A DNA stretch of 64,000 nucleotides from Bulleidia sp. zg-1006 (GTDB lineage: Bacteria; Bacillota_I; Bacilli_A; Erysipelotrichales; Erysipelotrichaceae), in the NCBI RefSeq assembly GCF_016812035.1, contig NZ_CP069178.1:1364001-1428000 (forward strand), given 5' to 3'. Each line of letters opens with the position of its first letter. Within the stretch, counting starts at the first letter, position 1. The position numbers were made by a program, and so were the translations under genes. Positions 39,904 to 42,070 of this stretch are shown here, in pieces. The notes under the pieces are model-generated. The model had not been told where the DNA came from. It did not search any database and was given only the letters and a program-made list of their open reading frames with translations.

Positions 39904-39934
39904 AAAAGGATAAAAGTTTTCCTTCTATCCTATT
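39904..39934 (-). terminator. Terminator of the cysK-cysE operon
   Basis: AGGATAGAAG and CTTTTATCCT stem followed by TTTTTAA on the minus strand. It overlaps the cysE stop. Confidence 0.75.
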
Positions 39935-40751
39935 GTCTATTCGGATTAAAATAAACCGTTTCTCCTGCTTCAACTGAATTTGTGATCCAGACACTTGCGC
40001 CAATCACACAATCATCACCGATGCTGGTTTCACCACCAAGGATGGTCGCATTCGCATAGATAACAACATTATTCCCAATATTTGGATGTCGTTTACCACC
40101 TTTAACCAACTTTCCATCCTCATCTTTTTTAAAACTCTTCGCTCCCAAAGTAACACCTTGGTACAACTTGACATGATGACCTAATACAGCCGTTTCACCA
40201 ATCACAACACCAGTACCATGATCAATACAGAAATAATCCCCTATCGTTGCACCGGGATTAATATCAATCCCCGTTTTTTCATGGGCATATTCTGCCATTA
40301 AGCGTGGAATATAAGGAATTTGTAGTGTGTATAGCACATGCGCTATGCGGTAAATAAAGATGGCATGGAAGCCCGGATAAGCTAAAATCACTTCAGCCTT
40401 TGACCAAGTGGCTGGATCACCATCATAAATTGCTTGAATATCCGTAAGAATAGAGCGTTTCATCTTTGGCATTTGCTCCAGAAATTGATCTCTCAGTCTT
40501 CCACAAATAGAGCAATCTCTGCTATTAAACTGCAAAGCGGCTTGTATTTCTTTTTTTAAATCTTTGGCAAGCTGATCCAAAATCTGTTCTTGACTCATAT
40601 TTTCAATAAGATAATAATCCGGTAGTAATAAAGCTTGTATCTGTTTTATAATCGCAATAATTTTCGTTCGTTCCGGTGCTTTTACTTTTAAAAGAACGTC
40701 CTCATCTTGAATAGCGTTTAATTCATCTATTAATGTTTTAAAATTTTCCAT
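39930..40751 (-). CDS. cysE: Serine O-acetyltransferase
   Basis: 273 residues. The C-terminal left-handed beta-helix has hexapeptide repeats (GIDINPGATIGDYFCIDHGTGVVIGETAVLG, VTLGAKSFKKDEDGKLVKGGKRHPNIGNNVVI), including the catalytic His-Asp region. The long N-terminal helical part is the SatA type. It makes O-acetylserine for cysteine synthesis. It starts 2 bases after cysK, in the same operon. Confidence 0.93.
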   Translation of the reverse strand: MENFKTLIDELNAIQDEDVLLKVKAPERTKIIAIIKQIQALLLPDYYLIENMSQEQILDQLAKDLKKEIQAALQFNSRDCSICGRLRDQFLEQMPKMKRSILTDIQAIYDGDPATWSKAEVILAYPGFHAIFIYRIAHVLYTLQIPYIPRLMAEYAHEKTGIDINPGATIGDYFCIDHGTGVVIGETAVLGHHVKLYQGVTLGAKSFKKDEDGKLVKGGKRHPNIGNNVVIYANATILGGETSIGDDCVIGASVWITNSVEAGETVYFNPNRQ

Positions 40752-40753
40752 TT

Positions 40754-41686
40754 TTATTCCGTGAATAAAGAAGTTGATAAATAACGATCGGCTGAATCCG
40801 GTAATAATACCACAATCAATTTTCCCTCATTTTCCTTTCGTTTCGCTACCGCAAGCGCCGCCCACATCGCAGCACCTGAAGAAATACCAACCAATACTCC
40901 TTCCTTTCTTCCTATTTCAGCACCGGTTTTGAATGCGTCTTCATCCGTAACCGCAATTATTTCATCATAAATCTCTGTATCTAATGTTTTTGGAATAAAA
41001 CCGGCACCAATTCCTTGAATAGAATGCTTTCCGGGCTGACCACCATTTAAGACAGCACTATTCGCCGGTTCAATCCCAATCACCTTTATATTTGGGTTTT
41101 GTTCCTTAAGATATTTCCCTGTTCCTGATATGGTTCCACCTGTACCAATAGCAGAGATAAAGATGTCTACTTTACCATCGGTATCTTGCCAGATTTCCGG
41201 ACCGGTCGTTATATAATGCGCTTTACGATTGGATAAGTTTTCAAATTGTTGTGGAATAAATGAATTCTCAATTTCTTTCGCCAATTCTTCTGCTTTAGCA
41301 ATCGCTCCATTCATCCCTTTTGCGCCCTCTGTTAATACTAATTCAGCACCATAGCCCTTCATAATTTTACGACGTTCAACTGACATTGTTTCAGGCATTA
41401 CAAGAATAACTTGATAACCCCTTGCGACACCAACGGCAGCTAAACCAATGCCGGTATTACCGGAGGTGGGTTCAATAATCGTTGCTCCAGGTTTTAATAC
41501 GCCTGCTTCTTGTGCATCACAAATCATTTGGTAAGCAATGCGATCTTTAACCGAACCTGTTAAATTGAAATATTCTAATTTTGCGACCAAACGTGAACGC
41601 AAGTTTAATTCCTTTTCATAATGTGTCAACTCTAATAATGGTGTATGACCAATGAGTTGTAATATTGATGTTTTAATGTTTCCCAT
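40754..41686 (-). CDS. cysK: Cysteine synthase A
   Basis: 310 residues starting MGNIKTSILQLIGHTPLLE after AAAGGGAG. The PLP lysine is in NLTGSVKDR, the phosphate loop in SGNTGIG and GTGGTISGTGKYL. It makes cysteine from O-acetylserine and sulfide. The frame extends 13 codons upstream, but that stretch is part of the leader. Upstream lie an attenuator-like terminator and a Cys-rich leader ORF. Confidence 0.95.
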   Translation of the reverse strand: MGNIKTSILQLIGHTPLLELTHYEKELNLRSRLVAKLEYFNLTGSVKDRIAYQMICDAQEAGVLKPGATIIEPTSGNTGIGLAAVGVARGYQVILVMPETMSVERRKIMKGYGAELVLTEGAKGMNGAIAKAEELAKEIENSFIPQQFENLSNRKAHYITTGPEIWQDTDGKVDIFISAIGTGGTISGTGKYLKEQNPNIKVIGIEPANSAVLNGGQPGKHSIQGIGAGFIPKTLDTEIYDEIIAVTDEDAFKTGAEIGRKEGVLVGISSGAAMWAALAVAKRKENEGKLIVVLLPDSADRYLSTSLFTE

Positions 41687-41734: not shown

Positions 41735-41764
41735 TAAAAATCCAAGAATATACGCCCTTGGATT
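41735..41764 (-). terminator. Attenuator terminator of the cysK leader
   Basis: AATCCAAG/CTTGGATT stem followed by TTTATTTTATC on the minus strand, between the leader ORF and cysK. Just upstream TTAGTAGC and GCTATTAA can pair; the second arm reaches into the terminator stem, so it could act as antiterminator. Confidence 0.75.
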
Positions 41765-41802
41765 AATAGCTAGATGATTTCATTCGCTACTAAAGTGCAC
41801 AC

Positions 41803-41889
41803 TCAAAGCAGAGTCAACGAACATAAAGTATCAATCCGGACATTCTTGAAACAGCAACAACACATCATTTTTTTAGTATATTGTTTCAT
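41803..41889 (-). CDS. Cysteine-rich leader peptide of cysK-cysE
   Basis: A 28-residue ORF with the ribosome binding site AGGAGGGAAGGAT. It begins MKQYTKKMM followed by four Cys codons in a row (TGT TGT TGC TGT), and has a fifth Cys near the end. It lies in the 5' leader of cysK-cysE, upstream of a terminator. The layout is that of leader-peptide attenuation: a ribosome stalled at Cys codons when Cys-tRNA is scarce would favour an antiterminator. The role is inferred from sequence. Confidence 0.75.
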   Translation of the reverse strand: MKQYTKKMMCCCCFKNVRIDTLCSLTLL

Positions 41890-41923
41890 ATCCTTCCCTC
41901 CTATTCGTTGTTTGTATGATTTT

Positions 41924-41938
41924 TAATGATAATCATTA
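41924..41938. promoter_or_regulatory. Fur-box-like palindrome upstream of cysK
   Basis: TAATGAT-A-ATCATTA, a perfect 7-1-7 palindrome identical to the central 15 bases of the classical 19-base Fur box. It lies 35 bases upstream of the leader ORF start. No clear promoter could be placed with confidence in 41940-42040. Confidence 0.55.
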
Positions 41939-42040
41939 GGCTTAGATTTGTCTACTTATATGCTTTCTAAGAAAACTTTTTGTCCAACTAACCAACTTCA
42001 TTTACTTATTTCTTTGCGCTTGTCATTGATTCTCTATGTC

Positions 42041-42070
42041 TAAAAAAGGAGAATGACCAGCACTCTCCTT
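42041..42070 (-). terminator. Terminator of the ribosomal cluster
   Basis: AAAGGAGAGTG and a CATTCTCCTTT arm around CTGGT, followed by a T-run on the minus strand, 8 bases after rplQ. Confidence 0.85.

Follow-up and report, generated by a model that had tools for sequence, protein, structure and literature searches.

A probable cysteine-responsive leader-peptide attenuator upstream of cysK-cysE in Bulleidia sp. zg-1006 and its relatives

The window (the whole stretch of DNA that was analysed, 64,000 nucleotides from Bulleidia sp. zg-1006) carries on its minus strand, as read from its sequence, the genes cysK and cysE together with all elements of a leader located ahead of them. The gene cysK (40754..41686, minus strand, start codon ATG at 41686) encodes cysteine synthase A of 310 aa, recognized by PF00291 and by TIGR01139 with 437 bits, above the cut-off. 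Directly 3´ of cysK and in operon with it lies a cysE-like gene for serine O-acetyltransferase (39930..40751, minus strand). Its assignment is based on the Pfam domains SATase_N and Hexapep and on a TIGR01172 score of 161.6 bits, lower than the curated cut-off of 210.65.

Upstream of cysK, a leader ORF of 28 codons, MKQYTKKMMCCCCFKNVRIDTLCSLTLL (41803..41889, minus strand), was identified, which recurs in relatives. As described in the initial annotation, it possesses a strong ribosome binding site, the Shine-Dalgarno sequence AGGAGG (41897..41902, minus strand) placed 7 nt 5´ of the ATG, and four consecutive Cys codons, TGT-TGT-TGC-TGT, at codons 10-13 (41851..41862, minus strand), the proposed stall site; Cys23 is a further Cys codon in this ORF. 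A promoter-like site with 10/12 matches, TAGACA-17-TATCAT, is located at 41926..41954 (minus strand). It is weak by itself, because shuffled sequences yield 2.1 such sites per region; promoter-like sites are found at comparable distances ahead of the leaders of many relatives. Farther upstream, 3´ of a ribosomal protein gene (ORF 42440-42078), a stem GGAGAGTG...CATTCTCC followed by a T-run occupies positions 42040-42070 of the window and is probably the terminator of this upstream ribosomal protein operon.

Between the leader ORF and cysK there is an intrinsic terminator, AATCCAAGGG-CGTATA-TTCTTGGATT (segments 3:4; 41739..41764, minus strand; -9.0 kcal/mol), reading as a whole AATCCAAGGGCGTATATTCTTGGATT, then TTTATTTTAT, with a U-rich tail at 41738-41729. 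A scan of 471 nt detected no other terminator, with an expectation of 0.2 from shuffled sequences, in agreement with the clear terminator claimed initially. Four segments emerge when the leaders are compared. Segment 1, CAACGAATAGGAGG...GGATAT (41888..41910, minus strand), spans the ribosome binding site and start of the leader and is predicted by minimum-energy folds to pair with segment 2 and the stretch behind it, forming an anti-antiterminator. Segment 2, TCCGGATTGATACTT (41826..41840, minus strand), begins 10-11 nt past the last codon of the Cys run. It is followed by a predicted middle hairpin, CTGCT...AGTAG (41787..41811, minus strand), holding the leader stop codon, and by segment 3, AGCTATTAATCC (41760..41771, minus strand), which is either the partner of segment 2 in the antiterminator or, via AATCC, a part of the terminator.

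The same arrangement was seen in relatives, where segment 2 is CCCGGAT-like and located within a few nt 3´ of the Cys run, terminator arms 3 and 4 are ATCCGGG and CCCGGAT, and the counterpart of the middle hairpin, between segments 2 and 3, reads GGATTG...CAATCC or GGCTGC...GCAGC. RNAalifold applied to ten leaders gave both the 2:3 antiterminator and this middle hairpin unprompted. Invariant sequence in the leaders is largely confined to the Cys codons, the CCGG pairing core and the terminator. The antiterminator proposed originally, TTAGTAGC/GCTATTAA, was mis-assigned: the two sequences can pair, but this hairpin does not compete with the terminator, since both sit in one minimum-energy fold. 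According to the predicted folds, the real competing pair is TCCGGATTGATACTT with AGCTATTAATCC.

Next, we examined conservation of the Cys run. Within the genus, 70 cysK upstream regions were inspected, and 19 of them contain a short ORF with a ribosome binding site and CCC; any other amino-acid triplet XXX occurs in at most two of the 70, and Cys triplets on the opposite strand in none of them. The two closest congeners (CysK 82% identical) have MTQVKTNQMCCCCKLKNVRMITV (G093) and MNKQMVNQMCCCCNLNNVRMNAVTASGLL (G059) ahead of cysK, and, besides congeners, at least three more genera of this family possess leaders with runs of 2-6 Cys codons. In 42 non-redundant leaders, where the run usually starts at codons 6-11, we counted 21 different TGT/TGC strings; evidently, the amino acid is kept and not the nucleotide string. 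Conservation of the run had been set beforehand as the test for refutation, and the run is indeed kept in relatives, with TGT and TGC interchanged. Many cysK copies of the genus lack a Cys-run leader, and no Rfam family matches 20 cysK upstream regions devoid of the Cys run. In one genome, a Cys leader (CCCCIC) with a terminator precedes an ORF without Pfam match (L250, 1515-1660), and a second copy of the leader stands 5´ of cysK (L261).

The distribution of Cys runs bears on a simple alternative, namely that a constitutive partial terminator is accompanied by a chance Cys-rich ORF, untranslated or non-regulatory. Short ORFs are common and four Cys codons are moderately frequent by chance, TGYTGYTGYTGY (four TGY codons in tandem) having 4 occurrences in the 1.5-Mb genome (1.545 Mb, 99.8% complete). 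Nevertheless, the run recurs with synonymous variation in ORFs with strong ribosome binding sites, its place between segments 1 and 2 is fixed and runs of other amino acids are missing, so that we regard a chance ORF as extremely improbable. The sole in-frame Cys run behind GGAG...ATG in the genome is that of the window leader. A genome-wide search with the pattern GGAG-ATG-TGYTGYTGY, which is blind to reading frame and therefore too noisy, was dropped.

Two covariance models were used for searches, R1 trained on Cys leaders only and R2 built without the leader of the window. R2 recovered the window leader with 65 bits (E 1e-17), the next-best match in the window scoring 8.5. At E<=0.01, R1 matched 24 of the 70 genomes of the genus and 54 of the 273 genomes of the family, with one strong match per genome in about 20 congener genomes; all strong matches in the genus are located 5´ of cysK and at least eight of them were outside the training set. 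Weak R1 matches in G007, G014, G079 (C289 and C308) and G114 (C42) contain no Cys leader and were taken as chance. Applied to 80 named cysK loci, mostly from other Firmicutes and a few from other phyla, R1 returned no hit at E<0.5, and in the order outside the family it gave nothing convincing at E<=0.001. Judged by the 80 cysK loci, the scaffold is not found outside the family. Two of these 80 loci, L053 and L086, have Cys-containing short ORFs (MRKATFSCICCCTVCCDQHPRFVVPM and MAMTIRALAICKNVCCLQHARFAIPI, respectively) with terminator-like hairpins behind them before cysK; their scaffold is a different one, which perhaps arose by convergence.

Pairing between the segments was evaluated in 22 leaders. 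The 2:3 pairing exceeds that of shuffles (Fisher 1e-16), and segment 2 fits segment 3 of its own leader better than segment 3 of a foreign leader (permutation p 5e-5). The corresponding values for 1:2 pairing, which is missing in about one third of leaders, are 5e-6 (Fisher, against shuffles) and 5e-5 (own-partner test). In the window leader taken alone, the 1:2 duplex has -18.5 kcal/mol (shuffle p 0.07), the 2:3 duplex is borderline (p 0.06, or 0.03 by fold energy). The check for covarying stems in alignments turned out negative: on MAFFT alignments, column-wise covariation stayed within the range of shuffles, without excess for 1:2, 2:3 or 3:4. This is partly because several MAFFT rows are out of register, and the evidence for pairing is consequently alignment-free and thermodynamic.

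States of the ribosome were modelled by restricting the fold to RNA that lies in front of the ribosome, assuming no pairing across it. This procedure replaced folding with a masked ribosome and pairing across it allowed, in which the states hardly separate. With the ribosome on the Cys codons, 41 of the 42 leaders are predicted to form the 2:3 antiterminator, far above the level of shuffles. Placing the ribosome at the first Cys codon yields a mean probability of 0.97 for 2:3 pairing before segment 4, compared with 0.36 for shuffles (p 9e-13, 42 leaders); in the full leader, with the ribosome on the Cys codons, mean terminator probability is 0.44, compared with 0.84 in shuffles (42 leaders). 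For the window leader this probability is 0.00 (shuffles 0.94), and its antiterminator (-24.8 kcal/mol) is still the minimum-energy fold at full length. When the ribosome is at the stop codon, the RNA in front of it forms the terminator with a probability of 0.98 in the window leader; when the ribosome is absent, the value is 0.78. The stop codon of this leader lies about 20 nt past segment 2, so that a ribosome positioned there leaves segment 2 uncovered; release would then proceed via a ribosome located between segments 2 and 3, or via 1:2 pairing.

These features suggest with high confidence that the leader is a transcription attenuator of the trp/his type, mediated by the ribosome and responsive to cysteine. 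The layout of leader-peptide attenuation recognized initially is thereby supported, a 2:3 antiterminator competing with the terminator being predicted in nearly all leaders. Starting from the ORF, the codon run, the terminator, recurrence in relatives and predicted mutually exclusive folds, we infer transcription, stalling, dependence on tRNA charge and the direction of response as follows. Transcription would begin shortly 5´ of the leader ORF and a ribosome would translate the leader. If Cys-tRNA is scarce, the ribosome would stall on Cys codons 10-13, leaving segment 2, just past its leading edge, free to pair with emerging segment 3; with this antiterminator formed, RNA polymerase would continue into cysK-cysE. 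With plentiful cysteine, the ribosome would reach the stop codon and sit between segments 2 and 3, segment 3 would pair with segment 4 and transcription would stop. If the leader is not translated, segment 1 would pair with segment 2 and the terminator would form again. Since relatives keep the leader layout, a cysteine-sensing switch is probable, and the bacterium probably turns on cysteine synthesis when its ribosomes are short of cysteine.

A stalled ribosome could also act on translation, altering access to the cysK ribosome binding site or mRNA stability instead of termination. Such action has a parallel in mycobacterial poly-Cys leaders, which have been reported as translation attenuators (cited in PMC13236596). 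However, a canonical terminator with U-run stands between the leader and cysK in the window and in most relatives, and segment 2 has its competitor in the 5´ arm of this terminator. Control at the level of translation is thus very unlikely, and transcription attenuation is the reading we prefer.

Cysteine genes of Firmicutes are usually thought to be controlled by CymR or by T-boxes. Rfam gave no match at the window leader, T-box (RF00230) included, and the initial statement that no T-box motif is present upstream of cysK holds. Elsewhere in the genome there are 11 T-box matches, eight of them above the cut-off, with tyrS, valS, leuS, hisS, pheS, ileS, serS and a metN-like gene as neighbours (identified from the sequences of the genes themselves). 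This location before tRNA-synthetase and metN-like genes implies that the genome uses T-boxes, but not for cysK; no T-box match was found near cysS of the host genome either. A protein of the Rrf2 (CymR) type, PF02082, was not found in the 99.8% complete genome, although it is present in 13 of 14 control genomes. If our reading is true, the leader accounts for cysteine control in bacteria without a CymR-type protein.

With T-boxes in use elsewhere in the genome and a structured leader ending in a terminator, one could think of a cysteine- or tRNA-binding RNA, a riboswitch or an unusual T-box, which contains the ORF by accident. The lack of an Rfam match, the scarcity of invariant sequence and the existence of His-codon relatives preceding other genes all contradict this possibility and make it most improbable. 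Attenuation by a stalled ribosome remains the favoured explanation.

Enterobacterial trp/his attenuators work by 1:2, 2:3 and 3:4 alternative pairing steered by the stalled ribosome, and the same alternative pairing is predicted for the window leader. They differ in the position of the stalled ribosome, which is on segment 1 in enterobacterial trp/his and would be between segments 1 and 2 in the window, where segment 1 lies over the ribosome binding site. Closer in phylogeny are His leader-peptide attenuators, published for the Bacillus cereus group, Peptostreptococcaceae and Erysipelotrichales (PMC9413887) and, in bacilli, at hisS/hisZ (PMC2965389). They share with the window leader a short ORF in which three to five codons stand in tandem, a terminator with an antiterminator, and the phylum, probably also the order; they sense His and govern his operons or hisS/hisZ, whereas the window leader has Cys codons and precedes cysK-cysE.

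Cys-codon leaders have been predicted or reported in other phyla. The uORFC-8-2 motif before cysS of Rhodobacterales, predicted as a Cys-codon leader with terminator (PMC8632094), also has tandem Cys codons in a short ORF, an intrinsic terminator and proposed stalling on Cys codons. It contains two Cys codons and belongs to alpha-proteobacteria and to cysS instead of cysK, the distinction being drawn from description. In Actinobacteria including mycobacteria, poly-Cys leaders were predicted and no terminator hairpin was found (PMC1262725); leaders of this kind are also the subject of Canestrari et al. 2020, as cited by others. Like the window leader, they have Cys-codon runs in a short ORF, located 5´ of cys or cbs genes, but the mycobacterial ORFs are leaderless and lack a terminator, whereas the window ORF is Shine-Dalgarno-started and has an intrinsic terminator.

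A Cys leader attenuator in Firmicutes was not described in the literature searched; subscription journals were largely outside the search, and novelty is thus not proven. The initial opinion that a Cys-stall leader is unusual in Firmicutes holds in part: no Firmicutes Cys leader was found in this literature, but leader-peptide attenuation itself is known there from the His leaders (PMC2965389, PMC9413887). The mechanism is one already known for other amino acids, and Cys specificity in Firmicutes, which we did not find described, would be the novel part. If confirmed, it adds cysteine to the specificities of leader-peptide attenuation in Firmicutes.

R1 also finds leaders with another codon run. 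These are MTLFMERRNHHHHHNDRTLCVAFFG, ahead of an operon for an ABC transporter whose binding protein is of the SBP_bac_3 type, and MKLVMESRIHHHRHHCSGRTSCVVSFV, ahead of a homologue of that operon; the domain SBP_bac_3 comes from the one His-leader locus scanned. A search for His runs in the genus revealed further leaders (e.g. MQKRSEMRMHHHHHRFLINRTPVVRIF), followed by terminators and binding-protein genes, and His-run leaders occur both in the genus of the window and in a sister genus. With them, the His attenuators of PMC9413887 may come to include transporters among their targets. Such leaders before amino-acid ABC transporter binding proteins were noticed at L263 (155-260, G151), at L243 (about 1515-1597) and at L288, L283, L282, L281, L296, L287 and L292.

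In two other cases (L267 and L272), a CCC leader with terminator precedes an ATC hydrolase gene (PF14196, E 3e-18), 3´ of which lies a solute-binding-protein gene. ATC hydrolase is an enzyme tied to cysteine formation. The change of codon accompanies the change of gene, and this is the best evidence in our data for the codon run as the sensor. It is conceivable, and in our judgement evenly balanced, that one RNA scaffold (segments 1-4, CCGG-type core, middle hairpin) has been re-coded within the family by swapping the codon run only, Cys before cysK-cysE and ATC hydrolase and His before amino-acid ABC transporters, giving a modular attenuator family that replaces CymR and T-box control there. 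If so, the Cys and His versions provide a natural series for testing codon identity as the attenuator signal. At L264 (about 166-315), a leader-like ORF, MNKTVLHNCCSGKIVSRRSSGIVLL, with a terminator was detected before an apparent MFS sugar-type transporter (R1 E 4e-5).
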